A stretch of 64,000 nucleotides of DNA, from contig NC_134507.1 of the NCBI RefSeq assembly GCF_027942865.1, positions 31,230,447 through 31,294,446 on the forward strand, given 5' to 3'. A program made the translations under genes and the position numbers. Below the pieces are notes generated by a model. The model was not told the origin of the DNA and searched no databases. It saw nothing but the letters and a program-made list of their open reading frames with translations. Shown here in pieces: positions 4,201-60,735 of the stretch; the first letter of the stretch is position 1, and each line of letters begins with the position of its first letter. The stretch comes from Odontesthes bonariensis (Eukaryota; Chordata; Actinopteri; Atheriniformes; Atherinopsidae).

Positions 4201-5743
4201 GTGTGGGTGACATCCAACTGTTCCTGGGATCATCAGCAGCACCAGGCTGTAGTTTGGTGTGGGTAACATCCAACTGTTCCTGGGAGCATCAGCACCAGGC
4301 TGTAGTTTGGTGTGGGTTACATCCAACTGTTCCTGGGAGCAGCAGCACCAGGCTGTAGTTTGGTGTGGGTAACATCCACCTGTTCCTGGGATCAGCAGCA
4401 CCAGGCTGTAGTTTGGTGTGGGTAACATCCACCTGTTCCTGGGAGCAGCAGCACCAGGCTGTAGTTTGGTGTGGGTTACATCCACCTGTTCCTGGGATCA
4501 GCAGCAGCACCAGGCTGTAGTTTGGTGTGGGTTACATCCACCTGTTCCTGGGAGCAGCAGCACCAGGCTGTAGTTTGGTGTGGGTAACATCCACCTGTTC
4601 CTGGGAGCAGCAGCACCAGGCTGTAGTTTGGTGTGGGTAACATCCACCTGTTCCTGGGATCAGCAGCACCAGGCTGTAGTTTGGTGTGGGTAACATCCAA
4701 CTGTTCCTGGGAGCAGCAGCACCAGGCTGTAGTTTGGTGTGGGTAACATCCAACTGTTCCTGGGATCAGCAGCAGCACCAGGCTGTAGTTTGGTGTGGGT
4801 TACATCCACCTGTTCCTGGGAGCAGCAGCACCAGGCTGTAGTTTGGTGTGGGTAACATCCACCTGTTCCTGGGATCAGCAGCAGCACCAGGCTGTAGTTT
4901 GGTGTGGGTTACATCCACCTGTTCCTGGGAGCAGCAGCACCAGGCTGTAGTTTGGTGTGGGTAACATCCACCTGTTCCTGGGATCAGCAGCAGCACCAGG
5001 CTGTAGTTTGGTGTGGGTTACATCCACCTGTTCCTGGGAGCAGCAGCACCAGGCTGTAGTTTGGTGTGGGTAACATCCACCTGTTCCTGGGAGCAGCAGC
5101 ACCAGGCTGTAGTTTGGTGTGGGTAACATCCACCTGTTCCTGGGATCAGCAGCACCAGGCTGTAGTTTGGTGTGGGTAACATCCAACTGTTCCTGGGAGC
5201 AGCAGCACCAGGCTGTAGTTTGGTGTGGGTGACATCCAACTGTTCCTGGGAGCAGCAGCACCAGGCTGTAGTTTGGTGTGGGTAACATCCAACTGTTCCT
5301 GGGAGCAGCAGCACCAGTCTGTAGTTTGGTGTGGGTAACATCCAACTGTTCCTGGGATCAGCAGCAGCACCAGGCTGTAGTTTGGTGTGGGTAACATCCA
5401 ACTGTTCCTGGGAGCAGCAGCACCAGTCTGTAGTTTGGTGTGGGTGACATCCAACTGTTCCTGGGAGCAGCAGCACCAGGCTGTAGTTTGGTGTGGGTAA
5501 CATCCACCTGTTCCTGGGAGCAGCAGCACCAGTCTGTAGTTTGGTGTGGGTGACATCCACCTGTTCCTGGGAGCAGCAGCACCAGGCTGTAGTTTGGTGT
5601 GGGTAACATCCAACTGTTCCTGGGATCAGCAGCAGCACCAGGCTGTAGTTTGGTGTGGGTAACATCCACCTGTTCCTGGGAGCAGCAGCACCAGGCTGTA
5701 GTTTGGTGTGGGTAACATCCAACTGTTCCTGGGAGCAGCAGCA
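1225..5743. repeat. Large minisatellite, about 53-bp unit, roughly 80 copies
   Basis: A tandem array of a unit reading roughly GGCTGTAGTTTGGTGTGGGT, then AACATCCACCTGTTCCTGGG and AGCAGCAGCACCA. The basic length is 53 bp, and 56- or 59-bp variants come from extra AGC triplets. Recurring single-base variants (CCAACTG/CCACCTG, GGTAAC/GGTTAC/GGTGAC, GGAGC/GGATC) make it a variant-repeat array. About 950 bp at 2100-3050 reappears at 3337-4287 with an offset of 1237 bp and only occasional differences. The array probably lies in tbc1d12 intron 1, since that gene is transcribed leftwards from 12.4 kb. The minus strand is open in all three frames because 53 is not a multiple of 3 and the unit has no stop in any frame; I regard that as coincidence, not coding. 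Confidence 0.95.
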
Positions 5744-5858
5744 CATTGTGTGCCATCACACCCACAGGACAGGATCTGTGTAAATAATTAACCACAGAGG
5801 TGGTGAGGGCTCGTTAACTCCTTGAATTATTAAAATCCTTCCAGCCAGTTCTAAATGC

Positions 5859-25500: not shown

Positions 25501-28500
25501 TACTACTCATACTCAAACTACCCAAGATGCAACGTAATGTGACGTCGCCGATCGTCATTTCCTGTCAAAAACGGCAGTTTCAAGCTAGCTACAACGAGGG
25601 TAGGTTCACTTCCTGTTTTCAAAACAAAAGCACCAATTGTATCGTAATGGCTTTCCCTATGGTAAAAGGCAACTGTATTTTATTTTGTGAAAATAACCGG
25701 AAGTGCGTTGCTCACTGCGGCTACCTTTAGTAGCGCCGAATTCGTGGGAACAAAATTGTAAATAGCCGGTATTTTGTCAGGTTTTCAACACGTTGGGGAT
25801 CTAAACGACTACTCTCTCGCCTGAAAATGTTTCAAATGTTGCTAAAGTTTACAGAGTTTAGAGCTTAAGCGAAATCAGCTTCAGGCCGGATGATTTCGGC
25901 TCGGGCAGGAGCGAGATGAATTGTGGGTAAACGCTCTGCATACTGTCCGATCGATTAATATGTAGTATGCAGTATGCAGTATGTAGTATGCAGTTTCGAA
26001 CACAGAGACCGAGGAGCACCTGTAACAGTCTTTCTTTTCTGTGAGCAACAGACTTTTACAATAATAAAATAAATAATGAAACCTGCATTAATGCGCGATA
26101 AAATATTTATCGCCGTTAAATATTTAACAAGTTAATGCGATAAAAACGAGTTAACTCGCCCAGCCCTAGTTTACATCAATTTAAACCTGATTTGATGGTA
26201 ATGAAAGTTACTTCTGCTCATATCATTTGGTCCTGACACCCTGGGCTTTCCAGAGTTTAGCAATGAGCAACCCTTTCTTCCTCTTCCTCATCTTATGAAC
26301 TGAAGCCGTCCTCCATGGAGAGTTAGCTCACTGATCCGTGAGAAACAAACACAGAAAACTGGAAACTCCAGAGTCTCACCTGCGTTTTCAGGGATGAACA
26401 TAGTGCAGAGGCAGGCGGAGCCGGCGAGACACAGGAAGCTGGCCATGCTCTTCCTCCTCCCGGCCCTGAACAGCAACACAAAATTAAATTAAATAAAAAA
26501 CAAAACAAAATAACTGTGTTGATCTGTTTCTGCTGAAAATTAAATCATTTCTCAAAGTGGACACCATCATTTCCACTCATTTAGTTCTTCATCTCGGGCA
26601 CCTATAGGTTGGATCTGCACACTTCCTAACTCCAAAGAGTTTGTCATTAGCTCAGAAGAGGAGGGCTCTTCCTCCTGGGGAAGCCTCTGGCTGAACAGTC
26701 CTCCGATTAGTGCTGGTTCTTGCTCATTAAACTGTCATCCATAAAGTTTCCTGACTGTTTTAACCCGACTGCTTTAAACCCGACTGCTTTAAACCCGACT
26801 GCTTTAAACCCGACTGCTTTAAACCCGACTGCTTTAAACCCGACTGCTTTAAACCCGACTGTTTTAACCCGACTGCTTTAAACCCGACTGCTTTAAACCC
26901 GACTGCTTTAAACCCGACTGTTTTAACCCGACTGCTTTAAACCCGACTGTTTTAACCTGACTGTTTTAACCCGACTGCTTTAAACCCGACTGCTTTGAAC
27001 CCGACTGCTTTAAACCCGACTGCTTTAAACCCGACTGCTTTAAACCCGACTGTTTTAACCTGACTGTTTTAACCCGACTGCTTTAAACCCGACTGCTTTA
27101 AACCCGACTGCTTTAAACCCGACTGTTTTAACCCGACTGCTTTAAACCCGACTGCTTTAAACCCGACTGCTTTAAACCCGACTGTTTTAACCCGACTGCT
27201 TTAAACCCGACTGTTTTAACCCGACTGTTTTAACCCGACTGCTTTAACCTGACTGCTTTAAACCCGACTGCTTTAAACCCGACTGCTTTAAACCCGACTG
27301 CTTTAAACCCGACTGCTTTAAACCCGACTGCTTTAAACCCGACTGTTTTAACCCGACTGCTTTAAACCCGACTGCTTTAAACCCGACTGCTTTAAACCCG
27401 ACTGTTTTAACCCGACTGCTTTAAACCCGACTGTTTTAACCTGACTGTTTTAACCCGACTGCTTTAAACCCGACTGCTTTGAACCCGACTGCTTTAAACC
27501 CGACTGCTTTAAACCCGACTGCTTTAAACCCGACTGTTTTAACCTGACTGTTTTAACCCGACTGCTTTAAACCCGACTGCTTTAAACCCGACTGCTTTAA
27601 ACCCGACTGTTTTAACCCGACTGCTTTAAACCCGACTGTTTTAACCCGACTGCTTTAAACCCGACTGTTTTAACCTGACTATTTTAACCCGACTGCTTTA
27701 AACCCGACTGCTTTAAACCCGACTGCTTTAAACCCGACTGTTTTAACCCGACTGCTTTAAACCCGACTGTTTTAACCCGACTGCTTTAAACCCGACTGTT
27801 TTAACCTGACTATTTTAACCCGACTGCTTTAAACCCGACTGTTTTAACCTGACTATTTTAACCCGACTGCTTTAAACCCGACTGTTTTAACCTGACTATT
27901 TTAACCCGACTGCTTTAAACCCGACTGTTTTAACCTGACTGTTTAAACCCGACTGCTTTAAACCCGACTGTTTTAACCTGACTGTTTTAACCCGACTGCT
28001 TTAAACCCGACTGCTTTAACCCGACTGCTTTAAACCCGACTGCTTTAACCCGACTGTTTTAACCCGACTGTTTTAACCCGACTGCTTTAAACCCGACTGC
28101 TTTAAACCCGACTGCTTTAAACCCGACTGCTTTAAACCCGACTGTTTTAACCTGACTGCTTTAAACCCGACTGTTTTAACCTGACTGTTTTAACCCGACT
28201 GCTTTAAACCCGACTGTTTTAACCTGACTGCTTTAAACCCGACTGTTTTAACCTGACTGTTTTAACCCGACTGTTTTAAACCCGACTGTTTAAACCCGAC
28301 CGTTTTATCCAGACCGTTTTATCCCGCCAATTTTATCCCGACTGTTTTAACCCGACTGTTTTAACCCGACTGTTTTAACCCGACTGTTTTATCCCGACAG
28401 TTTCAGATTATTAGTTTTTTTAGGCCAGGAGAAACAAACCCCTGATCCAAGATTTCCGGCTGTTTGAAAAAGAAACAGAAAAACCCTGAATGTATAGCTT

Positions 28501-36509: not shown

Positions 36510-37397
36510 TCATGGTTCGTGGTTATTTTCCTTGTTCTTCAGAGCTGTGCCCTCAGAACCTGGATCCTCAGAACCTGGATCCTCAGAACCTGGATCCTCA
36601 GAACCTGGATCCTCATCTTTCGGTGCCGCTTCACCTCTGTTGCCGCCTCCAAGACAAGGTATTTTCTTCTTTTTGTAAGCAAAAATAACACCACCAATAA
36701 CACCACCAATAACACCACCACCAACCAGCACCGCAAAGACCCCACCAACAATATTCGCAACTGGATCAGGGGGTATGTAGAACGGGTTTTTGAGTTCTTC
36801 ACTGCCTTTCTCACTCACTGGGTTCTCCAGTTTGCAGGAGAACGTTTTAACACTTTGTGTTTTCTCATTATTGGTGATGATTAAGTCCTTTTCTGACAGT
36901 GTCCACTCTCCGTCACCCATCCTCCACTGATAGGTGACAGGTTGGGCTCCTGTAACATCTGCTTCACAGCTGCACGTACACTCCGGGGTCTCTTTGGTGC
37001 ACGTCAGGGGTCTCAGGATGACCGTAGGCCGGGGTACCTTCTTTAACTCCACAGCGTTATACTCTACAGGGTGGTCCTTGTTGTTGACCTCCACCGTGTA
37101 TTTTCCAGCGTGAACTGTCTTCATTTTTCTGATTGTCAGCACTCCGGTGTCCACATTGAGGACTGTATCTGATTTAAAGTCGCCGTAATATACCAACGGA
37201 AGCGCATCTTTAATCCATTCAGCCACGAGATTGCCCTTATTCTTCCATGTGATGCTGGTGATCGGCCCAGAGAGCTGAGGCCTGAGGACGAGCTCACCGT
37301 CAAGTGCGAAATACACCGTTTCATCCTGGGCCTGAGTAACTTCCAGGGCCGCCGACAGCCACGCTGCCAGGAGCGCAAAACCAGCCGGGATCTTCAT
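36510..37397 (-). CDS. Intronless Ig-superfamily type I membrane protein (CD2/CD48/SLAM-like)
   Basis: A single uninterrupted frame of 295 residues. Residues 1-23 (MKIPAGFALLAAWLSAALEV) form a signal peptide. Residues about 24-118 are a V-type Ig-like domain without the canonical Cys pair, with LTIRKMKTVHAGKYTVEV at the F strand. Residues about 122-212 are a second, Cys-rich Ig-like domain (CTKETPECTCSCEADVTG, YQWRMGDGEW, FSCKLENPVSEK). Residues about 217-245 are a Gly/Val-rich membrane helix, then KKKK and an acidic tail with four EDPGS repeats. The architecture resembles fish CD48/CD58/SLAM-family adhesion receptors, which act at the cell surface in leukocyte contacts. Family members normally have one exon per domain, so the absence of introns points to a retrocopy or an unusual locus. 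I cannot name an orthologue. Confidence 0.75.
   Translation of the reverse strand: MKIPAGFALLAAWLSAALEVTQAQDETVYFALDGELVLRPQLSGPITSITWKNKGNLVAEWIKDALPLVYYGDFKSDTVLNVDTGVLTIRKMKTVHAGKYTVEVNNKDHPVEYNAVELKKVPRPTVILRPLTCTKETPECTCSCEADVTGAQPVTYQWRMGDGEWTLSEKDLIITNNEKTQSVKTFSCKLENPVSEKGSEELKNPFYIPPDPVANIVGGVFAVLVGGGVIGGVIGGVIFAYKKKKIPCLGGGNRGEAAPKDEDPGSEDPGSEDPGSEDPGSEGTALKNKENNHEP
36550..36615. repeat. 15-bp coding tandem repeat
   Basis: Four copies of CAGAACCTGGATCCT encode the EDPGS repeats in the cytoplasmic tail of the Ig protein. The unit keeps frame, so copy number can change without breaking the gene. Confidence 0.9.
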
Positions 37398-37399
37398 GT

Positions 37400-38640
37400 T
37401 TGCTTGTCAGTAAGGGATCGACGGAATATCAGCCTTCATAGTCGGCTAAAATGACGACAATTTCACCATAGATCGGTTCCACCCTGCCGTTGCCTTCGTT
37501 CTGATCAGGAAACGCAATGCAATGGGCGTTGTCAAAAAAAAAGGATGTAGGTGTCTTTGCAGTGCCCGATTGAATAAATTCCATGAGATCGTAAAAATCT
37601 TAAAAATAAAAATAAAAACCATGTACAATGTATGTAGTTTAGCAACAGATTGATACCACGATGCTAATTTTGAATCGTTTTAGGCGACTGTGTATAGATA
37701 TTATATGTATTGCCTTTAAAACATGAAGGCATTCATGTTAGCCACCTATGCTAATATTAGCTAGCTATGTTAGCTAAATTATCTGTTAGCTTCCACGCTA
37801 AACTTGTTTAAGTTTGGAAACGCCAGGTTCATTAAGCCAATTCTTTAACCAAAAAAGATCCACCACAAACTTTATTTTTATTGAAGTGTTATGAAATACG
37901 TTCATTTGATATGTTAACGGTCATTTTAGGTCAATCGCAAAAACACACATCAGTGAGGGGGACCGAACATGACAATACACCAGTAAAACCGAAAGAAAAG
38001 AAAATGAGCATCAAGTTCCCGTCTTCCTGTTGTACGTTAAAGGACAAACACATTTGAGCTAGTGTAACGCAGAGTCTACACATGACAGTTTCCATATAAC
38101 TTCCCTGTTATATGATCATATATGTGCTACAATGCTGAAAATAATGGCTTCATGTTAGAAAAAGGAGGTAACGCTGCATGAATTGGTTTAGAGGAAGTGA
38201 TGTCAGATCTGACCGTTATAAGGTGACCGAAAGGTTTGCCTGAGGAAATCTCACCTAAAAGTGTGCTTCTTAAATTAACAATAAAATTAGAAATACCAAA
38301 CAGACGAAGATTTTTAACTATGATTCATAAAGATAAATAACGCCAGGTGTGCTTTAATTTGTTGGTACTTACTGTTAATAAGTGTGTAGTGAACAAGCAT
38401 CCCTTTTATTAAACTTCTTTCCATCAATTTTTCACATATTTGCCTTGTTGAACAGTATTTGGTGTGTTGAAAGGAACCCCGGCTATGATGACTTTCAGTT
38501 CTTAAAAGATACATATTAGTATCAGTTATAATAAAGTGATATGAAAAACATTGTTGATGTCTTCGTTTTCTAAAATTATTCAAAAAATAGTTAAACACGT
38601 AAGTCGCCATTGTTCGCAATGCTGGACAGTGACGTCACGA
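37400..38640. other. Upstream region of Ig gene; no gene recognised
   Basis: AT-rich non-coding DNA with a cluster of TTAGC/GCTAA words at 37735-37800. The minus frame 38314-38619 has no domain. The sequence becomes CpG-richer from about 38600 as it approaches the P2X7-tail-like exon, with a TGACGTCA-like site near 38632. Confidence 0.3.
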
Positions 38641-38689
38641 AGTTTTTACGGCCGGCTTCGAACCCGTGTTCGGATGACGTCGCAGCAAA

Positions 38690-38897
38690 ATGTCATCTGT
38701 TCAGCCTTTTCAATTTGAACCTGAGCGAAACATTAATGAGGTGATGAACACGGATGATGAGTCACCACATGAGGAAGAAAGACATGAGTCAGTGGGTCAA
38801 AATCAGTGGTGTTTGTGTGGTAACTGCGTCTCCATGGGAACCGAGAGGGAGAGTCTTTGCTGTAAAGAGCTTCAATTTTTGTCAGAAGATGTTCAGC
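38690..38897 (+). CDS. First exon of a P2X7-tail-like zinc-binding protein (orphan exon)
   Basis: ATG at 38690, after a CpG-rich stretch with a CRE-like GACGTCA. It encodes about 69 residues: FQFEPERNINEV, an acidic segment, then WCLCGNCVSMGTERESLCC, the Cys pattern that opens the zinc-binding intracellular domain of P2X7 and of a large family of stand-alone fish proteins. It stops at a strong donor (CAGC then GTAAGT at 38898). The next exon should carry the rest of the domain, but downstream there is only the convergent transposon-like gene. Either the locus was split by that element, or this exon is a second gene of the same mobile element. The read-through stop is at 38905. Confidence 0.55.
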
Positions 38898-39104
38898 GTA
38901 AGTAGACTAGTGTGTGATCAAACTTCTACCAATCAATAATGTCAGAAATTATTAACTTTCAGCAGAGCATCATCATATAGCAGAACTGAAGCAAGAAAAA
39001 ACAGCACACCACACCACACCACACACACAACACAGAGGGAACAACCCAAGGCCGACAGGACCAGGGCCAGGGCCCACAACTTTCACTCTTGATTTGTGCA
39101 ACTT

Positions 39105-39337
39105 TTACAGTTCCATTCTTCTGCAGTAGTGTCCAAAGCTTTGTGTGGGAAAAGACACACAATTGGGGTGGTACCAAGTACTGCAGTTGCTGCACTGCAC
39201 CATCACCTCTCTGTTGTGTGAGGTCCTGCAGATGCAGTGAACCTCAACTTGAACTGAGGCCCTTTCAAGTTTTACCTTTATGTTTTTATACTGAAAGACT
39301 GGAGCCATTTTGTTCAGCAAAGCTCTGTACAGTCTTT
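39105..39337 (-). CDS. PHD finger, separated from its upstream exon by a MITE
   Basis: The frame encodes a compact zinc finger, CICRTSHNREVMVQCSNCS then TWYHPNCVSFPTQSFGHYC, with the Cys4-His-Cys3 pattern of a PHD finger, ending RRMEL and a stop. It has no start or acceptor of its own that I trust. On the other side of the 549-bp MITE the Ulp1 frame ends, and the two together fit the protease-PHD order known from fish transposon proteins. PHD fingers read histone H3 tails, so the role would be chromatin targeting. Confidence 0.65.
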
Positions 39338-39886
39338 GGCTGTGTTCGAAACCGCCTACTACATACTACATACTTGAAAACGGCATACTCATCGATCAGA
39401 CAGTATGCAGAGCGTTTACACACAGTGCACTTCACTCCTGCCCGAGCCGACATCAGCCGGCCTGAAAAGCTGATTTCGCTTAAGCTATAAACTCTGTAAA
39501 TATATAACTTTAGCAACATTTGAAACATTTTCAGGCGAGAAAGTAGTCATTTAGACCCCCAAGGTGTTGAAAATCTGACAAAATACCGGCTATTTACAAT
39601 TTTGTTCCCACGAATTCGCCGCTAGTAAAGCTAGCCGCTGTGAGCAACGCACTTCCGGTTTCGCCGTTTTGACTGCTCTCGTCCCGTTAACGGAATTTGA
39701 CCGTTCAAATGGCGATGGGCGACGTCACGTTACGTTGCATCTTGGGTAGTTTGAGTGTGACAAGTAACCTCATGATGAATACTCAACATTTCGGTGAATC
39801 TAGTATGCATCTAGTGTACATCCGGGAACTTAAAAAAGTATGACTAGTAGGAATAGTAGGAAAAGTAGGCGGTTTCGAACACAGCC
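39338..39886. mobile_element. MITE with GGCTGTGTTCGAAACCGCC ends
   Basis: GGCTGTGTTCGAAACCGCCT at 39338 and its inverse AGGCGGTTTCGAACACAGCC ending 39886 are perfect inverted repeats. The interior (TTCACTCCTGCCCGAGCCG, GTTGCATCTTGGGTAGTTTG) matches the copy at 25371-26005. It sits between the Ulp1 and PHD coding parts. No target duplication could be confirmed. Confidence 0.85.
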
Positions 39887-39892
39887 TCTGTC

Positions 39893-40468
39893 TCAATTTT
39901 TTTCCTGAAACTGGCACTCCTCTGGCCTTACTCCCTCACATAACACTGACGCAAAAGCCGATGCAAAAAGTCCACAACTGCTAGTCGACTGCTGCATCTG
40001 CACAGCAGGCCTTCTGATAAGGAATTGAGGTGCTTGTGGACGAATTAACCAGGAAAGTTTTTGCTTTGTCTTCTTGTTGGTGTTCATATTCAGACTGTCA
40101 TAAATACAAAGCTCATTGGGTCCACAGAAAATATTACTAGCTGTGATCCAGTGGTTGTCATTTACATTTAATATTTGCACAAATGACTTCTCTGGTGTCC
40201 CAACCACCCCTCCCTGGTGAAGAGCCTGATGGCAAAGGCAGGACTGAAACCCATCTACATCAGGGAACTTCTGCGCAAGATGAAAACAGGCTGAATCCAC
40301 TTCGTCACTACTGAGCCACGTTTTGTGGTCCAGGATGCTTAGCATTTGGTCTTGGTGAATGAATGGCTGTAATTTGATGGCTTGGATGACTTCCTCTGGT
40401 GAGTGCTTTGTCCAAAGTGGTCCATGGCTTTGCTTTTTTCCTGTAGGCCTATGCATTTTCTTCCTTTT
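39893..40468 (-). CDS. Ulp1/SENP-type (C48-like) cysteine protease domain
   Basis: An exon that opens after a consensus acceptor (CTCATAG) and encodes KRKKMHRPTGKKQSHG and about 187 further residues. It carries the full catalytic set in the right order: His in NDNHWITAS (102), Asp in LCIYDSLN (120), the Gln before the nucleophile in VQMQQS (155/156) and the Cys in SSCGLFASAFA (161). Ulp1-like proteases remove SUMO or related tags. In transposons their role is not settled, but they may act on host SUMO marks. The frame stops in the sequence QFQEKN next to the MITE at 39338-39886, so the stop may be a product of that insertion. Confidence 0.75.
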   Translation of the reverse strand, partial: KRKKMHRPTGKKQSHGPLWTKHSPEEVIQAIKLQPFIHQDQMLSILDHKTWLSSDEVDSACFHLAQKFPDVDGFQSCLCHQALHQGGVVGTPEKSFVQILNVNDNHWITASNIFCGPNELCIYDSLNMNTNKKTKQKLSWLIRPQAPQFLIRRPAVQMQQSTSSCGLFASAFASVLCEGVRPEECQFQEKN

Positions 40469-40800
40469 CTATGAGACAAACAGCATACAAACACACACTT
40501 AGTTTACTGTAAAATTTTGGCCTACAATTGACTATCCAGCTCCCCTCCTTCTTAGACATTTCTTTCATCAGTCAGTTTGTGTTACCTGTTCATGCCATGT
40601 GGATTACATAAATCAAGTTACTTTTTGGATAAAAATGTGTTTATGCATACAGATCTGAGACATCATCAAGTCTGTAAATGTATCCAGCATTTTTGGCAAA
40701 TCAAAATCAATCATTTCATTTGCTCTTCAACAAGCAAATCCCATTTTTTGCAATGAAAATGTTCTATGAACATTTCAAAAGGCAATTAAATAAAGTGCAC

Positions 40801-41207
40801 CTTCAAACCATGTGTGTCCTGGCTAACTGGTTTTTGGTCCCCATGGTTCTTGGATGCCACTGATGCTGATTGGTCATCAGCTGGAGCTTTGCTTTTTGTC
40901 CCTTGAGATGCAGTCACCTGATTTGTTTCATGAAAAGCATTAGAAACTTTTAAAAAAAAGTGTTATTGATTCTAAATGTATCCAAAATGTTTGGTTAATC
41001 AAAATATTTCATGTAGTCTTCAACTGCATGTCATATTTTTGCAATGAAAATATAAATGCACATTACAAAAGGCAATTAAATAAAGTGCACCTTCAAATCA
41101 TGAGTCTCCTCCTTAGCTGGCTTCTGGTCTCCATAGTCCTCTGATGCCACTGATGCTGATTGGTTATGAGCTGGAGCTTGGCTTGTTGTCACCGGAGCTG
41201 CAGCCAC
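40801..41207 (-). repeat. Tandem exon duplication, two 39-codon exons
   Basis: Exons 41207-41091 and 40917-40801 are each exactly 117 bp and 290 bp apart. They encode related segments (VAAAPVTTSQAPAHNQSASV and VTASQGTKSKAPADDQSASV). The homology extends into the flanking introns (GGCAATTAAATAAAGTGCAC after both). Both keep consensus splice sites and phase 0, so each could be included or skipped without a frame change. Confidence 0.75.
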
Positions 41208-42356
41208 CTGTTTCATTTAAGGAGAAGCATTAGAAACTTGCATTTAGTTTTCAAACTTTTTTATATGCTAAGTACCATTTCCAAAGGTTCTTCATATTAC
41301 TTTTTTTTTCTGTTTGAACTGGAATGGCTGTTTGATGGAGGTAACATAAACTCCTCTCCTACTTTGCTTTCGCTGCCTCCACTTCTCCTTCAGAATACGG
41401 TGCTCCTTTAAGAAGAAACATATGAATTCATATATAAGTAATAGAACTCATTTTGTGGTGAAAGTGACTCTTTTAACCTATGGTATGTAACAGATACATA
41501 AGAAAAAAGATAATCTCTATCTTTAAATCTGCATTCAATACTTGAGTTACAACAAATCACAAATTTTGTATGTCTTTGAGTGTTACTCTCCATGTTAATT
41601 TCCCAACTGTCTTGGAACGTGCCACTCACTCACTTAAATGAATTATTATTAGAAGTTATTCATTTTGACTGTAACATATATACCACTTAGCTGGCCAGCT
41701 GTTGATGCTACTTTTGCTTAAGGCATTAACTACTGGATTACAACAAGCCTCTGCCTTCTGGAACTGTTCCCTGCTGCCTTTGACCAGGTCAGGAGAGTGC
41801 AAGCAGTAAGGGAAATAAAGTTTGTTCATGATGGTTAAAGGGTGGTGAAAGGGAAAAGATCACAAGGTAACCTAAACTGAAAAATGTCATCATATGGTAA
41901 ATCATATGAATGTTATTATATGAATGTGCTTTCCACATTTCATTGACTGTCTGCTGATTACATTTCGAAGGCATGCCGTAGGCCTTGGACTTGAGCCCCC
42001 CTCCCCTTTTTATTTAAAAGGATGGACTGTTTTATTGGCATTCTAAAGCAAAGTTTTAAACAGTGACAAATACAAGTAAATGAACTAACTGCAACTATCC
42101 TGTGCCTTTCGCAACAGTGGTACCTGCTGGTATAATAGGACCTCACACTACTGTGTGACACAGACACAAGCTATCATTACATAATGTTAAAAAACACTTC
42201 CCAAGATTTATTTTGTACATTGCCAAGCACAAAACAAACTTGAATTGCACTCAATGACATATTGCAATAATATATGGTGGTAAATTAACATCTTTGTCAA
42301 GTATAACCTCTTTTTTAAAGCTACAGATATATCAAATATACTGTTAGGTGTCTCAC

Positions 42357-43567
42357 CTTTCTTTTAGTGATTCATTGCGAGTCATGGAATTCCCTTAAAA
42401 GGGCTTTGTGAGTGTCTTTGTAAGTGTTAATGAAGTCATTTAGTCTGGTCAGTCGTCTTCCTTTAAAGCAGATTTTTTTCAAGTCCCACTGACTCTTTTC
42501 CATCACTCCCTGTGTCTTGTTGTCTTGCGTGAAATTCTGATAAAAACAAAAGAACAATTATTGTGTTACCAAATTATTGTGTAAAATGCATTCCACTCCG
42601 TTACACCATAACGTTACAATCAAAAGTTTAAAATGTCAGGAACCGTAAGAGAAAGCAATTATTGTGAAAAAGGCATCTTCTACTTTACTATACTTTATGA
42701 CTAAAGTAATAGGTTTAAACTCTCCATGAAATTTCTAATATTCATCCAATTTATACTTCACCTGGCTTTTTTTCACTGATATCTTGGCAAATTTCTTTGA
42801 GAAGTTCTGATAGGGGAGCCCTTCACCATGCCTGCCGATGTCACCTGAAGATGTAAAACGTTACTTTTAGATCATTTTTGGACACAGTTAAAGGACACAT
42901 CTCTGCATACATTGTACTCAATCAGAACTGACTGGGTTAATCCTCAGGGGACTGTGAATGTGCTTACCAAAGGTCTCAACAATACACCCAATATACATTG
43001 ACATGTAGATTTTCATCAAATGTTGGTGGGAGAGGTAAGGTGATTTGATGTTTAGGATGGAGGAATAAGAACAGAGTCACCACAGCAATCCACTAATTGT
43101 ATTTCCTAATAGCTGACATTTTGACTTGATGTTTACAGGAAACTCGCAAGGTTCATGACCCTTGAATTTATTAACTTGATTTCATGTCAATCAAACAAAT
43201 AGATGGCAAGATATGTTGCCTTTGAGCAAAGCCAGTGTTAGTTACTGCACTGGCAGTGGGACAAAAATGTTAGGGACAGCTGACAAACAATTTTGGGTTT
43301 TTTAACCATAAATATTTTTAGGTTATTAATTGGTCTCATCAAAAATGAAAACATTTAAAAGTGTAACTGACCCAGCATCATACTTGTCCAAAGAGCTGCC
43401 TGAGGCAAGAAGTAAGCTGCCAATAACGAGATGAATGTCTCAGAGTAATAGACATTAGGATCCCCTTCTTTGTCTAGGGGTGCGTTGTTTATGACATCCA
43501 TGAAGTGTTGTTGAAATGGTGTTGGACCGAAGGTGTCCTAAAAGAAGAAAAAGAAAAAAAGTGTATA

Positions 43568-43617
<50 letters not shown>

Positions 43618-43901
43618 TTTCAAAGTCGATTAACAAAAGACATTATTTCAAATCATTAATTAGAGATTTAGTGGGTACCTCAAGGTCCTCAGGAACAATG
43701 CTGCTGTCATCAACAGTTGAGTCCCCAATGGTTGCCAGCATTGTTTGAATGTTGTTGAGGTGCTTCTCAACATTTTCTGAGCTGCACGGGCTGGAGAAGA
43801 TGACAGTGCAGCTGAGGAGCCTTTCATCTAACTCACCAATGGAACTAGCTGATGTCAACAGTCCAAACACATGCATGGCCAGCTTGTAGTTCTTGGGCGC
43901 A
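42357..43901 (-). CDS. Middle exons of the transposase-like gene
   Basis: Four exons follow the catalytic exon. 43901-43679 starts APKNYKLAMHVFGLL. 43537-43372 carries FISLLAAYFLPQAALWTSMM, a helix often seen after the catalytic core in this protein type. 42844-42762 carries GDIGRHGEGLPYQNFSKK. 42536-42357 carries QWDLKKICFKGRRLTRLNDF. All phases agree. The last has an in-frame TGA (42372-42374) just before a consensus donor (AAAG then GTGAG), so either translation ends here or the stop is a recent mutation. A (TA)n microsatellite sits in the intron at 43565-43613. Confidence 0.5.
43563..43614. repeat. (TA)n microsatellite
   Basis: About 25 TA repeats within an intron of the transposase-like gene, starting GTATATATATG. 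Confidence 0.95.
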
Positions 43902-43997
43902 CTACGAGAGAAATACAAATTATCGCATTGTCTTCATAAACACTTAGTTGCTAATAGTGTAGATATCTGCATTCTTGAAAAAAAGTGTTTCACTTAC

Positions 43998-44958
43998 TGC
44001 TTTTTGCACAAAGTTTTTGCATTTTTCATGATGTGACTGAGACAGCGGTGGAGGATAGGATGGCTGAAGTCTTGAGCAGTGCCTTTCCCTGTTAGTATGG
44101 TATAATAACTGTGGAGCAAGGCATTGAGGTTTGTTTTGCAGAAAGCCATCGTTAAGGCCTGCATGAGAACCATGGAGCCATCACACATAACCATGGGTGG
44201 AATGATGTTTTGTCCATGTTGTTTGGCATGATCTGTCTGAAAGGAAGTAAGAAAATAAAGGACAGAGGCCGTTGTGTGGTCACAGGTCACTAACGTAGCA
44301 ACAGGAAGAGGAGAGGAACCCTTCTTTGTGTTTCTGACCACCAACTCATACACATAAAAAGGACCCTCGCAGTGTTTGGATTTCTTAATAATGCTTCCAG
44401 TTGCATCTAGGTGCACTATGTCCTCTTTGGATCGGTTGTGGAATATGCTGATGCTTCTCTTGGACCAAAGCATCACACCCTTTGGATGAAGTATCACTTT
44501 CTGAAGCACTTCATCAGGTTCATCTTTTTCTGCTTCCACCATCTTCAGGAGACTAAGAGTTTCATTTTTATGTTTCCTTTCCTTCATTCTTTGTCGATAT
44601 GAAATGGATTTAAGAACACCTGATGATGGTGCTTCATCTCTACAACCTGACTCAACCACTGATTCCTCCAGTTTTTCCAAGCTTTCAAGATAAAATGCCC
44701 TTGGGAGAGTGTTTAGAAGTTGCTGGTGTATTATTTTTTTGATTGTCTGCTCTGACGGGTCGCTTTTGCAGCTCTGTTTTACTACGCACTGCTGTTTCGC
44801 CTCTGAAGTACACATCTGCTTTAAGTGTGGTCTCACTGTGCACAATGACATCAATTTCCACTGGGCAGTCACTGAACAAGCAATGTGCAGCGCATTTAAA
44901 AACAGGTGCATTCCTGGTTGATCCACGAACTTTGACCCGGTGTCCTGAAAATGCAAAA
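43998..44958 (-). CDS. Transposase catalytic exon (RNase H-like fold)
   Basis: The frame encodes about 320 residues. Near the start is a conserved block, GSKFVDQPGMHLFLNALHIA. A catalytic core follows: VHLDATGSIIKK (Asp at about 184), PVATLVTCDHTTASVLYFL, PPMVMCDGSMVLMQALT (Asp at about 259) and HRCLSHIMKNAKTLC (His/Cys at about 304-306). Spacing and motifs are those of DDE-type transposases of fish elements in the MULE-like spectrum. The third acidic residue is not identified and would lie in a later exon. The donor at 43997 (GTAAGT) joins in phase to the exon ending EDLE at 43679. The acceptor could be at 44958 or 44944; only the former matches the phase of the preceding exon. Confidence 0.65.
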
Positions 44959-45347
44959 CTGCAATGTGGATTAATTTTATTGATTTTTATTTTAGTCCAT
45001 TGTAGTCACTTGAAGTGGTCCTTCTTTTGAGTTTTCCGTAGTTTTGTCCAAGCATTGCGAGGAACAAAAAAAATGAAGGTGGTGCTGGAAGACTCTGTAT
45101 AAAGAATTCCTCTTCTTTGTCAGTGTCATCATCTTCATTGTCACTCCAACTGTCACTGTCTTCTTTTTGGACCTGCAAGACAAAAAAATAGTAATTTATG
45201 AAACTATATTTTGTTTGTAAAGTAGTTGGCCACATTTTATTGTGTAATGATTTGAGATTAAACATTTGAGATGGATTTGTAAAGCCGGCTACGAGTAGTA
45301 AACATAGTAATAAATGTGTACCATATGTATTAAATGTAATTCCTTAC

Positions 45348-45856
45348 ATATTCCTCTGGCTGGGCATATGTCATCTCCTGTGCAAAATCCTCTTTTAAGT
45401 CTCCCTCCTCTTGTATTAAGTCATTTTTCATTGGATGTTGATTTATATCTTCTTCCTTTTCAAAAACATCCATCTCTTGTGTGTCTTCGTCCTCTTGTGC
45501 AGCTTCCATCCGTGGTGCATCTTCTTCTTTTTGAACCATTTGTATCACCTTTGATTCCTTTTTATTTCCATCCTCTTCAAACTCTTTGTCTTTTAAAGCT
45601 CTGTCCTTTTCATTATCCTCTTTTTTTATGTCCTCATTGTGAACAACTCTCAACTCAAGTGCATCTTCACACTCTTGTGTTAGGTCTTTTTCCTGTGCAT
45701 CCTCTCCTGTTATGTTATTATTACTTTGGACATCGCACCTCTCCTGTTCATCTTCTTTCTCTGGTACGAGTTCTGGTACATCATAGTTGTCCTCAACAGT
45801 GTCAGACTGAGCCTGATATTTAAAACATGAAAAACAGTTTAAAAATATACTATTAC

Positions 45857-45938
<82 letters not shown>

Positions 45939-46145
45939 TTGGCAGACCTTAATACTTCTAATGTGTGCCCTCTTCAGTCGATATCTATTTGTCGATGTGT
46001 TCGGTACACCCAAAGCAGTGCACAGTTCTGGCCAGAAGTTATGCTCGCTTGATGGACATTCCCCTGTTTTCTGCTCAGATAAGGAATCCTTAAGTTTCCG
46101 GATGTGCTTTGAAATATCCTCATGAGCTATATATTTTCTTTTGGA
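45348..46145 (-). CDS. N-terminal exons of the transposase-like gene (basic motif, acidic linker)
   Basis: Exon 46145-45948 (66 codons) begins SKRKYIAHEDISKHIRKLKD and contains HNFWPELCTALGVP and a basic RYRLKRAHIRSIK end. Exon 45812-45348 (155 codons) is a Glu/Asp/Lys-rich low-complexity segment with repeated EDxQE-type words. The two are separated by an intron that holds a (GATA)n microsatellite. The first part may be a DNA-binding region, the second a spacer. A tiny upstream exon at 46357-46333 is phase-compatible, but the true start codon is not identified. No ATG begins the longer frame: position 46163 is GTG within the acceptor tract. Confidence 0.5.
45857..45938. repeat. (GATA)n microsatellite
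   Basis: About 20 perfect GATA repeats in the intron between exons 46145-45948 and 45812-45348 of the transposase-like gene. On the minus strand it gives a spurious open frame of repeated YLSI. Confidence 0.97.
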
Positions 46146-46439
46146 CTGTTGAGGCAAAAGCACATTTTTGTACCAGTGATAAACAGGTATGTTTTACACG
46201 TAAATATAATATAAAAATATATTATAAAACACAAATAATTTGCCAGCTTAAAATGTTTTGTTATTGTCAAAAATGATTTGCCTCTCTTAGTGCATATTCA
46301 AATTTGGAAATGCATTAGAGTCTGATTCTTACCTTTCCAAATGTTTTGAAGACAATTCTAGATGGAAAATATTTAAGAAAAAAGCACAATTCAGTTCATT
46401 TTTCACGTAACTAATTAAATCGGGGCTCAGTAATATATG

Positions 46440-47540
46440 GGGTTTGTTTACCATGCAATACACACCCCAAAGCTGTAGGGGGAGCTCCGTAGAAAATAAG
46501 CAACAGTCTAGCCAGACTGTCGTAAACCCACCAGAGGCAATTTACGGTTTATTTTTCAAGACACTGGCAGAGAGTTGGAGAAGTAGAGATGCTTAACTCG
46601 AATCTTTTGGGCAATCCGGGCTGATTGGATCATTTCGAGGAGGGGATTCGAGTTATACTGACCACTTGAATCACTTGAGTCACTTATTAAAAAAAAAAAA
46701 AAAAACCCTTTCTGCCGTTTAGTGGCTATACGCCTCGCCTTTTTTTGGTCCCATTTATCAATTCATTTTGATAAATCAAAGAGCAGCCTACGGCTACAAG
46801 TTCCTTCATTTATTTTTGTCAAGTAATAATTCAATGCCATTTTATCTGAAAGCCAGACACAACAGCTAGTGTGTGCATTTACACAGCGACAAATGTGGTA
46901 GCATTAGGTGAGGCAATGCTGAGTTTAGACCTACAAGTAAACAACATGGAATGATCTTGCCCTCCCTATATCACTAAATGATTATTTTTCAACGACTGTA
47001 CAAGATGCATGAAGCCACGCTAACCGAGCCTGTAGCTGCCTGTAGCTGCCGACTGGGTGCTCGCTCGTCAAGACGAAACTTAAAAAGCTCCGAGTTGGCA
47101 TGGATCCGCTACTTGCCCGTCTGACCGCTGAATCGCTGGCTCTGGGTGACTCAGCGGTCAGACGGGCAAGTAGCGGTGGTTCTGCCATCACAACATCTAT
47201 TACAAACTATATTACAACTCTAGAAGCTAACCGCATTCAATTTAGACGTCGACAGCTAATGGAGAGGGGGTGTGTCTATCAGGCTACCTGGCTCGGCTCA
47301 GAGTCCTTTACGACCTGCCGTGAAGCAGTAGTTCTCGGCTCTCGTGTGTCGCGAGACTTCCAGAGCTAAACAAAGCACGCGCCGCCACAGGTAAAGTTGC
47401 AAGCGCTGTTTCGGGCTAGGGCCACCAGATGGAGATGGAAATGTCACCGTTTTCATTGGAACGGGTCAGCCAAGCAATCTGATGATTGCCAAGCAATTTT
47501 ATGACCATGAAAAAGTTGCATAGCATGTCTTTAAGAACAG
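46440..47540. mobile_element. Probable non-autonomous element with internal 26-bp perfect hairpin
   Basis: Bounded on the right by sequence typical of a DNA-element terminus (GTTGCATAGCATGTCTTTAA). It contains perfect inverted arms at 47106-47131 and 47151-47176 around a 19-nt loop. The overlapping frames on both strands (46982-47191 minus, 47100-47369 plus) both read through the hairpin and are probably fortuitous. The left end of the element is not defined. Confidence 0.4.
47106..47176. repeat. Perfect 26-bp inverted repeat, 19-nt loop
   Basis: The left arm CCGCTACTTGCCCGTCTGAC plus CGCTGA is exactly complementary to the right arm TCAGCGGTCAGACGGGCAAG plus TAGCGG. The arms are GC-rich, unlike the AT-rich flanks. 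Confidence 0.95.
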
Positions 47541-48227
47541 TTAGTATTAATAGTAGGGAACTTAGGCAATTCTTTAGTCTATTTCATGATAATATTTTCC
47601 TAGACACTAACGATATAAATGTTGTCCAATTCCCATAAAACAACAACACTGTTATTAAAAAAACAAAGAGCGCCTAAACAAGAATCAAAAGCAAGCACAA
47701 AAAGTTCATATCGGTATGAAAAAAACAAACTCACCCATATTTTCCCTTCTTCTCCGTCATTCTTTCAGATCAATAGAAATAAATTTCCACTGAGAAGAAA
47801 CGAGGAGTTGCGATTCAATATTTGGAGGGTTAGTCAATTAAGCTCGGCCGATAGGATAGAGTAATGCATGCATGCATTGAAGGCACGCGTTACCCATGTA
47901 GGCTAATTACAACTCTCGTGATTGAACATGTGAGGTACTGCTCATGCGTACAGTCATGCAGGATATTTACCTATGGGTGATCACTGCGTGTTTATCCAGG
48001 TGGCCTCTTAGTCTTCCTTGTTTAATTTCACATTAATTGTCTATATTTCACATTTTATGCTTTTTCTCCTTCTACTACTTTTAATATTTTCTTATATTAA
48101 GACTTTTTTTTATTCAGTGTTTACTGTTTATTTTTTATTTTACTGTGTTGTTAGGGAGACTCAGAGTCACGAAATTTTAATTCCGATTATGTCTGAGCAT
48201 GTATTACAAGTATTTAAAACATTACAA

Positions 48228-56153: not shown

Positions 56154-57029
56154 TTATCTTCCGCTGGTCCGGGGATCGGGTCGTGGGGGCAGCAGCTTGA
56201 GCAGAGAGACCCAGACGTCCCTGTCCCCGGCCACTTCCTCCAGCTCCTCTGGGGGGACCCCGAGGCGTTCCCAGGCCAGCCGAGAGACATAGTCTCTCCA
56301 ACGTGTCCTGGGTCTTCCCCGGGGTCTCCTCCCAGTGGGACGGGCCCGGAACACCTCACCGGGGAGGCGTCCAGGAGGCATTCTCACAAGATGCCCGAGC
56401 CACCTCATCTGACTCCTCTCGATGCGGAGGAGCAGCGGTTCTACTCCGAGCCCCTCCCGGATGACCGAGCTTCTCACCCTATCTCTAAGGGAGAGCCCAG
56501 CCACCCTGCGGAGGAAACTCATTTCGGCCGCTTGTATTCGCGATCTCGTTCTTTCGGTCACTACCCACAGCTCGTGACCATAGGTGAGGGTAGGAACATA
56601 GATTGACCGGTAAATCGAGAGCTTCGCCTTCTGGCTCAGCTCCTTCTTCACCACGACGGGCCGGTGCAGAGCCCGCATCACTGCAGACGCCGCACCGATC
56701 CGTCTGTCAATCTCCTGCTCCATTCGTCCCTCACTCGTGAACAAGACCCCGAGATACTTGAACTCCTCCACTTGGGGAAGGATCTCATTCCCGACCCGGA
56801 GAGAGCATTCCACCCTTTTCCGGCCGAAGACCATGGTCTCAGATTTGGAGGTGCTGATGGTCATCCCAGCCGCTTCACACTCGGCTGCGAACCGCTCCAG
56901 TGAGAGCTGAAGGTCACGGCCCGACGACGCCAACAGAACCAAATCGTCCGCAAAAAGCAGAGACCCGATTCTGAGGTCGCCAAACCGGACCCCCTCAACG
57001 CCCTGGCTGCGCCTAGAAATTTTGTCCAT
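56154..57029 (-). CDS. Rex3 reverse transcriptase C-terminal part (after frameshift)
   Basis: A 291-residue frame holding the catalytic FADD box ([14 protein letters not shown]), the thumb and C-terminal region ([37 protein letters not shown]) and the final [20 protein letters not shown] and [20 protein letters not shown] motifs. It begins where the long frame 57013-59346 is broken. The FADD and following blocks are therefore out of frame with the endonuclease, and the copy cannot make a full protein as read here. Confidence 0.85.
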
Positions 57030-59346
57030 AAAAAATTATGAACAGAATCGGTGACAAAGGGCAGCCCTGACGGAGTCCAACCCTCACAGGAAACATGTCC
57101 GACTTACTGCCGGCAATGCGGACCAAACTCTGACACCGGTCATACAGAGACCGAACAGCCCATATCAAGGAGTCCGGCACTCCATACTCCCGGAGCACCC
57201 CCCACAAGAGTCCCCGAGGGACACGGTCGAACGCCTTCTCCAAGTCCACAAAACACATGTAGACCGGTTGGGCGAACTCCCATGCTCCCTCCAGGATCCT
57301 GCGGAGGGTATAGAGCTGGTCCACTGTTCCACGGCCAGGACGAAAACCACACTGCACCTCCTGAATCCGAGATTCGACTATCCGGCGGATCCTCCTCTCC
57401 AGTACCCCCGAAAAGACCTTACCAGGGAGGCTGAGGAGTGTGATCCCCCTATAGTTGGAACACACCCTCCGGTCCCCCTTTTTAAAGAGGGGGACCACCA
57501 CCCCGATCTGCCAGTCCAGAGGCACTGCCCCCGATGTCCACGCGATGCTGCAGAGGCGTGTCAACCAAGACAGCCCCACAACATCCAGAGCCTTGAGGAA
57601 CTCAGGACGGACCTCATCCACTCCCGGGGCCTTGCCACCGAGGAGTTTTTTGACCACCTCGGCAACCTCAGCCCCAGAAATGGGAGGTCCCACGTCCGAG
57701 CTCCCCAACTCTGCTTCCTCATCGGAAGGCGTGTCGGTAGGATTGAGGAGGCCCTCGAAGTATTCCCCCCACCGACTCACGACGTCCCTAGTTGAAGTCA
57801 GCAGAGCCCCGCCCTCACCATACACGGTGTTGACGGTGCACCGCTTCCCCCCCCTGAGCCGCCGAATGGTGGACCAGAATCTCCTCGAGGCCGTCCGGAA
57901 ATCGTTCTCCATGGCCTCCCCGAACTCCTCCCAAGCCCGAGTTTTTGCCTCAGCAACCGCCGAGGCTGCGTTCCGCTTGGCCTGTCGGTACCCATCAGCT
58001 GCTTCCAGAGTCCCACTGGCCAAAAAGGCCCGATAGGACTCCTTCTTCAGCTTGACGGCCTCCCTCACCACTGGGGTCCACCAGCGGGTTCGGGGATTGC
58101 CGCCACGACAGGCACCGACCACCTTGCGGCCACAGCTCCGGTCGGCCGCCTCAACAATGGAGGCACGGAACATGGCCCATTCGGGCTCAATGTCCCCCAC
58201 CTCCCCCGGGACATGGTTGAAGCTCTGCCGGAGGTGGGAGTTGAAACTCCTCCTTACAGGGGATTCCGCCAGCCGTTCCCAGCAGACCCTCACAATACGT
58301 TTGGGCCTGCCAGGTCTGACCGGCTTCCTCCCCCACCAGCGGAGCCAACTCACCACCAGGTGGTGATCAGTTGACAGCTCCGCCCCTCTCTTCACCCGAG
58401 TGTCCAGGACATACGGCCGCAAGTCCGACGATACGACTACAAAGTCGATCATCGAGCTGCGGCCTAGGGTGTCCTGGTGCCAAGTGCACATATGGACACC
58501 CTTATGCCTGAACATGGTGTTCGTTATGGACAATCCGTGACGAGCACAGAAGTCCAACAACAAAACACCACTCTGATTCAGATCGGGGGGGCCGTTCCTC
58601 CCAATCACGCCCCTCCAGGTCTCACTGTCATTGCCCACGTGAGCATTGAAGTCCCCCAGCAGGACGAGGGAGTCTCCCGGAGGAGCACTCTCTAGTGCCT
58701 CCTCCAGGGACTCCAAAAAGGGTGGGTACTCCGAACTGCCGTTCGGTGCATAAGCACAAACAACAGTCAGGACCCGTCCCCCCACCCTAAGGCGGAGGGA
58801 GGCTACCCTCTCGTCTACCGGGGTAAACCCCAATGTACAGGCGCACAGCCGGGGGGCAATAAGTATGCCCACACCTGCTCTACGCCTCTCACCGCGGGCA
58901 ACTCCAGAGTGGAAGAGAGTCCAACCCCTCTCGAGGAGGCTGGTTCCGGAGCCCAAGCCATGCGTCGAGGTGAGTCCGACTATATCTAGCCGGAACCGCT
59001 CAGCCTCGCGCACCAGCTCAGGCTCCTTCCCCAGCAGAGAGGTGACGTTCCACGTCCCAAGAGCCAGCTTCAGTAGCCGAGGATCAGACCGCCAAGGTCC
59101 CTGCCTTCGGCTGCCGCCCAGCTCACACTGCACCCGACCCCCATGGCCCCTCCCACGGGTGGTGAGCCCATAGGAAGGGGGACCCGTGTTGTTTCTTCGG
59201 GCTGTGCCCGACCGAGCCCCACGGGCACAGACCCGGCCACCAGGCGCTCGCCGGCGGGCCCCACCCCTGGGCCTGGCTCCAGGGGGAGGCCCCGGTAACC
59301 CGCGTCCGGGCAAGGGAACACGGCGTCCAAAAGTATCACTCATCAT
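57013..59346 (-). CDS. Rex3 endonuclease/reverse transcriptase ORF
   Basis: A 777-residue frame. The first 110 residues are Gly/Arg-rich. An AP-type endonuclease follows ([36 protein letters not shown]) at about residues 100-360, then a linker, then reverse transcriptase from about 590 on ([62 protein letters not shown]). It stops at FYGQNF because of one extra A at about 57030 in a run of A (six instead of the five seen in the second copy), just before the FADD box. Apart from this change the element looks intact, so it is young. Confidence 0.85.
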
Positions 59347-59529
59347 AGGGGTTCTTGTGAGCTGTTCTTTGTCTGGTCCCTCATCTAGGATCTGTTTGCC
59401 ATGGGTGACCCTACCAGGGGCTTAAAGCCCCAGACAACATAGCTCCCAGACTCATTGGGGCACGCAAACCCCCCCACCACGGTAAGGTGACAGCTCAAGG
59501 GGGAGTATTATTAGATTATAATTTTATAT

Positions 59530-60460
59530 TATAAAATATCCATCCATCCATCCATCCATCATCTTCCGCTGGTCCGGGGATCGGGTCGCGGGGGCAGCAG
59601 CTTGAGCAGAGAGACCCAGACGTCCCTGTCCCCGGCCACTTCCTCCAGCTCTTCCGGGGGGACCCCGAGGCGTTCCCAGGCCAGCCGAGAAACATAGTCT
59701 CTCCAACGTGTCCTGGGTCTTCCCCGGGGCCTCCTCCCAGTGGGACGGGCCCGGAACACCTCACCGGGGAGGCGTCCAGGAGGCATTCTCACTAGATGCC
59801 CGAGCCACCTCATCTGACTCCTCTCGATGCGGAGGAGCAGCGGTTCTACTCCGAGCCCCTCCCGGATGACCGAGCTTCTCACCCTATCTCTAAGGGAGAG
59901 CCCAGACACCCTGCGGAGGAAACTCATTTCGGCCGCTTGTATTCGCGATCTCGTTCTTTCGGTCCCTACCCACAGCTCGTGACCATAGGTGAGGATAGGA
60001 ACATAGATTGACCGGTAAATCGAGAGCTTCGCCTTCTGGCTCAGCTCCTTCTTCACCACGACGGGCCGGTGCAGAGCCCGCATCACTGCAGACGCCGCAC
60101 CGATCCGTCTGTCAATCTCCTGCTCCATTCGTCCCTCACTCGTGAACAAGACCCCGAGATACTTGAACTCCTCCACTTGGGGAAGGATCTCATTCCCGAC
60201 CCGGAGAGAGCATTCCACCCTTTTCCGGCCGAGGACCATGGTCTCAGATTTGGAGGTGCTGATTCTCATCCCAGCCGCTTCGCACTCGGCTGCAAACCGC
60301 TCCAGTGAGAGCTGAAGGTCACGGCCTGAGGACGCCAGCAGAACCAAATCGTCCGCAAAAAGCAGAGACCCGATTCTGAGGTCGCCAAACCGGACCCCCT
60401 CAACGCCCTGGCTGCGCCTAGAAATTCTGTCCATAAAAATTATGAACAGAATCGGTGACA
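59530..60460 (-). mobile_element. Rex3 LINE, 5'-truncated second copy
   Basis: Nearly identical to the 3' part of the first copy, with a 300-residue frame (60461-59559) from [18 protein letters not shown] to the end. It starts abruptly at 60460 in AT-rich DNA and ends in the (GATG)n tail ATCCATCCATCCATC at 59538-59560. Same orientation as copy 1 and 24 bp from its 5' end. It has five A where copy 1 has six, and its frame is open. Confidence 0.88.
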
Positions 60461-60735
60461 ATTCTATTAAAATAATACAATTATATTAAATAATAAATAA
60501 ACAATCAATAATGTATTAAATAATAAATTAATATCGTATCACTGCCTGCTGTGTAAACTGTGCAGACCGAGCAGTCCCTGCTTACAAGCAGCAAACACCG
60601 TAACAGGCGCCGCTGTCGGCAGCAGGCAGTGATGCGAAGGGAGACAAAATAGGGCCAAGCAATTGTGAGGTCTGACTTTTTTCCTGGAGAATGATTTTTG
60701 TGATGCAAATGTATTACCCTTTTGAACGCATATTG
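60461..60735. mobile_element. Continuation of the foldback MITE right arm
   Basis: After the Rex3 copies the interrupted sequence resumes (ATAAACAATCAATAATGTAT, CGTATCACTGCCTGCTGTGT) and passes the palindrome centre (GCAGCAAACACCGTAACAGG). It enters the reverse half (AGGGCCAAGCAATTGTGAGG) until it is cut at about 60737 by the 60738-61298 element. Confidence 0.7.

Follow-up and report, generated by a model that had tools for sequence, protein, structure and literature searches.

A decayed Ulp1-PHD transposon copy adjoins a Kolobok-type fragment in the genome of Odontesthes bonariensis

Can a transposase, a Ulp1-type protease, a PHD finger and a P2X7-type tail belong to one mobile element? The question is raised by a 64,000-nucleotide stretch of the genome of the fish Odontesthes bonariensis (contig NC_134507.1; C2:31230447-31294446, hereafter the window), in which a minus-strand series of exons for the first three faces a plus-strand P2X7-tail-like exon. 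In a preliminary description, made from the sequence alone, both were proposed to form an unusual two-gene transposon. Searches of the 945-Mb genome point to a different answer, namely that two unrelated dead transposon pieces adjoin at this locus, a truncated copy of a foldback-type Ulp1-PHD element and a fragment of a Kolobok-type element carrying its KolX exon. The probability of this reading is put at about 0.85.

The Ulp1-PHD piece is a decayed, truncated and mutated copy of a DNA transposon. Its exons (minus strand, 39.08-46.15 kb; Table 1) are 87.5-100% identical to those of the copy C6, with 96-98% identity across long internal pieces. Both terminal arrays are missing, and three exons (3, 7 and 11) have broken frames: exon 3 has a frame change that leaves two overlapping frames versus a single 406-residue frame in C6, exon 7 contains a TGA stop at 42372-42374, and exon 11 is split by an inserted element of 549 bp. 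The inverted ends of this insert are perfect over 23 bp (GGCTGTGTTCGAAACCGCCTACT).

The transposase exon (329 residues) has at least 48 matches in the genome, a lower bound from the 80 candidates scored. These comprise the window, seven matches at 90-91% identity, one at 82% and a further group, at about 46-66%, that falls into several pieces; many further matches lie at 23-29% identity and have long frames. At 82% identity or above, eight copies occur besides that of the window (C2, C6, C7 (two), C16, C17 (two) and C24). The Ulp1 exon gave 10 matches at nine loci, which are the same nine transposase loci, so that the linkage of transposase and Ulp1 is 9/9 at this level of identity, and no copy away from these loci was found in the genome search with the Ulp1 exon. 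Across long internal pieces the young copies share 98.4-99.9% identity with C6, and the family has been recently active. Eleven GT-AG exons of C6 agree in phase and, once spliced, give 1,232 residues with no stop codon, a frame that excludes the start-codon exon; the protein is ordered as an acidic and cysteine-rich N-terminus, a DDE-like (Asp-Asp-Glu) core, the Ulp1 protease and the PHD finger. The family is a multicopy mobile element in which transposase, Ulp1 and PHD are parts of a single protein.

Terminal inverted repeats, sought in vain in the preliminary description and absent from the window copy, were found on the young copies, whose ends are inverted repeats of 170-bp tandem units with ACTGCGGTCACG as their first bases. 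At the outermost positions the sequence is ACTGCGGTCACGCC, with ACTGCAGT in C6 and C2 and ACAGCGGT on the left of C24. Inverted arrays of 170-171-bp units were called by Tandem Repeats Finder (TRF) in six of the seven young copies, with 9.0 and 9.1 units in C6, 5.0 and 4.1 in C24, at least 12.2 and 15.1 in C7b, at least 12.3 and 16.1 in C2, at least 12.7 on the left side of C7a, and at least 11.6 and at least 26 in C17; arrays that reach the edge of the analysed stretch give lower bounds. No array was called in C16, where parts of the unit were detected at both ends by blastn. The number of units is variable where called (4 to at least 26), as in foldback-type structures. In C6 the PHD stop lies only about 250 bases from the terminal array. 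The 8-mers flanking the element are identical (8/8), as exact target duplications, in C24, C16 and C7b, which are three of the six testable copies. As a genome query, the terminal 390 bases gave 306 matches; among those listed, 20 begin by eye at or near the terminus, 11 of them at young copies and 9 elsewhere, the latter being probably non-autonomous copies or relics.

The P2X7-like exon has another origin: as the KolX exon it belongs to a Kolobok-type element, separate from the Ulp1-PHD element. Its P2RX7_C match (38678-38905, plus strand, E 3.8e-6) is over the cut-off, and the segment in which it lies, 38467-38954, recurs at other places of the genome and has a left end of its own (26 matches, window included). 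The short copy L059 has inverted ends and TTAA on both sides, the target duplication of Kolobok, and it ends in AAGG...CCTT, which agrees with the 5'-RR/YY-3' termini of that group; TTAA is also present at the left end of L061 and the right end of L060, and the window reads TTGA. The C27 copy L058 includes the P2X7-like exon, a further P2RX7_C exon and, on the opposite strand, a 403-residue frame which, by its motifs and alongside TTAA and KolX, may be the Kolobok transposase. A KolX protein with similarity to the P2X7 tail was described in Kol0 Kolobok elements and proposed as the source of that tail (PMC9587614), and the P2RX7_C exons of the window and the C27 copy show the same similarity. 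Kol0 resembles the element of the P2X7-like exon in having a ballast-domain protein beside the transposase, TTAA and RR...YY ends (PMC9587614); the window differs in keeping just an end fragment.

The P2X7-like repeat ends at 38954, the same base where homology to the young copies of the Ulp1-PHD element ends. At this junction the two elements abut within their internal sequences, Kolobok-type on one side and Ulp1-PHD on the other, with no target duplication, so a deletion would have joined the KolX exon to the Ulp1-PHD piece. P2RX7_C is common in this genome, with at least 150 matches (596 candidates). The strongest among those listed, at C7:6159970-6162756 (E 4e-63), has an N-terminal piece nearby and is probably the true P2X7 receptor gene.

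Regarding the domains of the protein, Pfam PHD (PF00628) matches the window at 39105-39365 (minus strand, E 5.2e-8) and Peptidase_C48 at 39896-40468 (minus strand, E 1.1e-3), the latter with 19.3 bits, just under the cut-off of 20.7. In the last exon of C6 the PHD match reaches E 1.1e-9 and Peptidase_C48 E 2.1e-6, over the cut-off. The protease residues are read as His (NDNHW), Asp (YDS), Cys (SSCG) and a Gln six positions before the Cys, and presumably have the catalytic roles of their Ulp1/SENP counterparts. Ulp1 and PHD share the last exon, a 280-residue frame in C6, and an open frame of the same length occurs in six of the seven young copies. In a phmmer search of PDB the closest solved structures to the C6 PHD were the fingers of DIDO1, followed by CXXC1, Spp1 and BPTF, a type that reads H3K4 methylation. 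The alignments listed for the C6 last exon at E up to 0.1 lie on the PHD part, and the window Ulp1 exon gave no PDB match at E up to 1. As for the core, residues D466, D542 and E773 of the C6 protein, together with CxxH at 588, recur with comparable spacing in two relatives that share about 22-25% identity. Six members of the core produced three weak matches to Pfam, in one member each, and seven to NCBIfam, also in one member each (best E 2.5e-4), which look like low-complexity acidic sequence.

The preliminary description is partly borne out by these searches, namely in the PHD and Ulp1 calls, the presence of all four protease residues, the P2X7-type exon on the plus strand and the mobile nature of the element (copies at nine loci, inverted arrays and 8-bp duplications). 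Its union of the exons into one gene holds for the 1,232-residue frame of C6 but not for the window, where frames are broken and exon 11 is split. The core that it called RNase H-like shares its D...D...E pattern with the relatives, but the transposase exon (44000-44986, minus strand) matches no Pfam family, and single-sequence structure models from the window have a mean pLDDT (predicted local distance difference test) of 40.1 for the transposase part and 39.3 for Ulp1, values too low to support a fold search.

Several observations weigh against the reading proposed here. The flanking 8-mers agree at 6/8 positions in C6 and 5/8 in C7a, with no agreement in C2. Mechanical exon-by-exon splicing meets no stop in C2 and C6 but gives shifted frames in C24, C16, C7a, C7b and C17, partly because some exon ends are not fully aligned, and C6 alone was shown to be open throughout, with alignment complete at each exon end. 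The six-member profile of the core matches none of the solved structures (E up to 1), and with no Pfam, PDB or profile match for the core, the DDE chemistry rests on motif conservation. On the Kolobok side, no Pfam family matches the 403-residue frame of L058. The ratio of nonsynonymous to synonymous substitution rates (dN/dS) between C6 and the 82% copy, from few changes, is 1.42 for the DDE part (6 synonymous and 30 other changes) and 0.36 for Ulp1 (12.5 synonymous and 18.5 other); between C6 and the window copy it is 0.44 and 0.63, respectively, from very few changes. The ratios neither prove nor exclude constraint on Ulp1.

Table 1. Features of the two transposon pieces in the window, with positions counted from its first nucleotide.
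Feature	Position	Strand	Basis or remark
Whole window copy, homology to young copies	38955..48134	-	blastn
Exon E1, N-terminal	45948..46145	-	99.5% to C6 exon; AG...GT borders
Exon E2, acidic region	45348..45812	-	87.5% to C6, gapped; AG...GT
Exon E3, cysteine-rich region and first two Asp of DDE-like core	43998..45172	-	95.9% to C6
Exon E4	43679..43901	-	98.2% to C6
Exon E5	43372..43537	-	98.2% to C6
Exon E6	42762..42844	-	100% to C6
Exon E7, Glu of DDE-like core	42357..42536	-	97.8% to C6
Exon E8	41301..41405	-	99% to C6
Exon E9, repeated linker	41091..41207	-	92.3% to C6; direct repeat D2
Exon E10, repeated linker	40801..40917	-	91.9% to part of C6 exon
Exon E11, Ulp1 part	39887..40468	-	Peptidase_C48 E 1.1e-3
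Exon E11, PHD part	39083..39337	-	PHD E 5.2e-8; frame broken in window, intact in C6
Inserted 549-bp element splitting Ulp1-PHD exon E11	39338..39886	.	inverted repeat I6; site uninterrupted in C6
Insert of ~1.14 kb, not in C6	46392..47530	.	alignment break W 2470/3610 vs C6 3645/3648
P2X7-tail-like (KolX) first exon, then GT splice donor	38690..38897	+	P2RX7_C E 3.8e-6
End fragment of Kolobok-type element	38467..38954	+	97.8% to C27 copy L058; repeated elsewhere

The window holds other features as well. A single long frame at 36510-37406 (minus strand) matches immunoglobulin domains and also has a hydrophobic stretch and an acidic tail that is repeated; it would encode an immunoglobulin-type membrane protein, which may be immune. 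Minisatellites occur at 1231-5744 (84 copies of 53 bp) and 26753-28398 (about 57 copies of 29 bp), and long frames at 56154-60485 (minus strand), the 3' part present twice, resemble by reading only the endonuclease and reverse transcriptase of a long interspersed nuclear element (LINE).

The assignment of the Ulp1-PHD element to a superfamily is a further question. Its architecture resembles that of Rehavkus and the Phantom/foldback Mutators, and no sequence test supports membership. That it is an ordinary Mutator superfamily member, nearest to these groups, is the strongest alternative and is given slightly less than an even chance. The 8-bp duplication is within the 8-11 bp known for Mutator targets, the inverted ends are long and internally repetitive, CxxH follows the second Asp, and a PHD finger is present. 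Against this, the Asp-to-Glu spacing of 230 residues is longer than what we take to be usual for Mutator; the Pfam MULE family (PF10551) finds eight places in the genome, none of them of the Ulp1-PHD family, and has no match in the six aligned members. A comparison of the core by hhalign with one MULE protein of the same genome was negative, at low power (effective number of sequences, Neff, 2.1), and the same comparison with one Kolobok-type protein of this genome found nothing, also at low power.

Published elements share parts of this design. Rehavkus has a PHD finger and a minisatellite, and Phantom 8-10 bp duplications. Compared by description, Rehavkus (PMC6446971) is like the Ulp1-PHD element in the PHD within the transposase protein, the repeated DNA at the end, the long inverted ends and the near-equal duplication length; it differs in its arthropod and annelid hosts, its 9-bp duplications and its minisatellite before the 3' inverted repeat, whereas here the PHD finger is accompanied by 170-bp arrays at both ends. 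No Ulp1 is mentioned in the passages compared. Long inverted ends with tandem units variable in number are also known from Tm1, Galileo and Tetris (PMC3169594, PMC3688188, PMC4079207), with 8-10 bp duplications in Tm1 and units of about 220 bp in Tetris; unlike the Ulp1-PHD element, Galileo has a P-type transposase and Tm1 has units of about 14 bp, and the sections of these descriptions examined include no Ulp1-PHD fusion. Transposases with Ulp1 and PHD are published for Ginger1, and Mutators with Ulp1 are known from hydra, lancelet and plants (PMC2836005); in both groups Ulp1 follows the transposase, some members having a PHD finger, as in the element described here. The Ginger1 core is Gypsy-integrase-like, with CCGG/CCGT duplications (PMC2836005), and the Ulp1-PHD core lacks such a match. 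Membership in Ginger1 is not borne out, the six members having no integrase-type Pfam match at E up to 5. Among the papers listed in searches of open-licence literature, none on a fish transposon with both Ulp1 and PHD was found.

Membership in Zisupton/KDZ, fish transposons with 8-bp duplications, is very unlikely: duplication length and host would fit, but KDZ has no match in the six aligned members at E up to 5 and finds 11 places in the genome, none of the Ulp1-PHD family. A host gene or domesticated transposase, which the multi-exon structure and orderly splice sites might suggest, is even less probable in view of the near-identical copies scattered over the genome, of their inverted arrays and target duplications, and of the broken window copy. 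Least probable of all is the single transposon with a Ulp1-PHD transposase and a P2X7-tail partner, since, for all that the two features are at most 0.3 kb apart in the window, the boundaries of the young copies exclude the exon, an outcome that the preliminary description itself had named as refuting the idea, and the exon has repeat boundaries and TTAA duplications of its own and is not at the other Ulp1 copies as a consistent linkage would have it: by tblastn it matches the window at E 1.7e-44, ten other stretches yield one 13-residue match (E 5.9), extension of the 82% copy yields one of 14 residues (E 1.4), and among the at least 150 P2RX7_C matches listed the nearest to the eight other copies is, by eye, about 31 kb from a transposase exon (C17:9509544). 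A terminus of the Ulp1-PHD family at C21:34755333 lies some 5.4 kb from a KolX-type repeat at C21:34761065, which could favour a partnership; no transposase or Ulp1 exon is listed there, and the proximity is probably due to chance.

With the Ulp1-PHD element taken as a foldback-type transposon independent of KolX, its relatives bear on the nature of the terminal arrays. The relatives C6b (C6:3647100-3669000; about 54% identity) and C1 (50-54%) retain transposase exons, and searches of the stretches covered (E up to 1e-3) found no Ulp1 or PHD match in either. C6b has at least 32 units of 168 bp downstream, and upstream, about 8.5 kb before the transposase exon, the first 299 bases of the analysed stretch match these units in inverted orientation at 90-96%. 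Downstream, C1 carries 6.4 units of 177 bp, with no inverted partner seen within the stretch examined. The 170-, 168- and 177-bp units show no mutual similarity at E 1e-3; the tandem arrays of the window itself have periods of 23-53 and 127 bp. A rule of unit length is beyond proof from three families, and it is an unlikely, speculative extension that large foldback DNA transposons with nucleosome-length tandem units at their ends form a superfamily of their own, so far unclassified. Were unit length rather than sequence to be kept, the ends may act as phased nucleosome arrays.

A most likely mechanism can be outlined. The cysteine-rich N-terminal region would bind the terminal arrays and the DDE core would cut and paste with an 8-bp stagger, while the PHD finger may anchor the complex to histone H3 tails and the Ulp1 domain may remove SUMO from host proteins in the vicinity, whether repair factors or factors of SUMO-dependent silencing. 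If, on the speculative extension above, the ends also act as phased nucleosome arrays, the element of this subfamily would both recognise its ends and evade silencing via chromatin, through a histone reader and a deSUMOylase built into the transposase.

For the locus itself, a false partnership between a P2X7 tail and a Ulp1-PHD protein is replaced by the published link between KolX and Kolobok. For the family, a single protein of a recently active element would, judging by its predicted domains, cut DNA, remove SUMO and read histones, and the near-nucleosome unit length of its inverted arrays recurs with unrelated sequence in a relative. It thereby becomes testable whether a transposon handles its own ends via histone marks, SUMO or nucleosome phasing.

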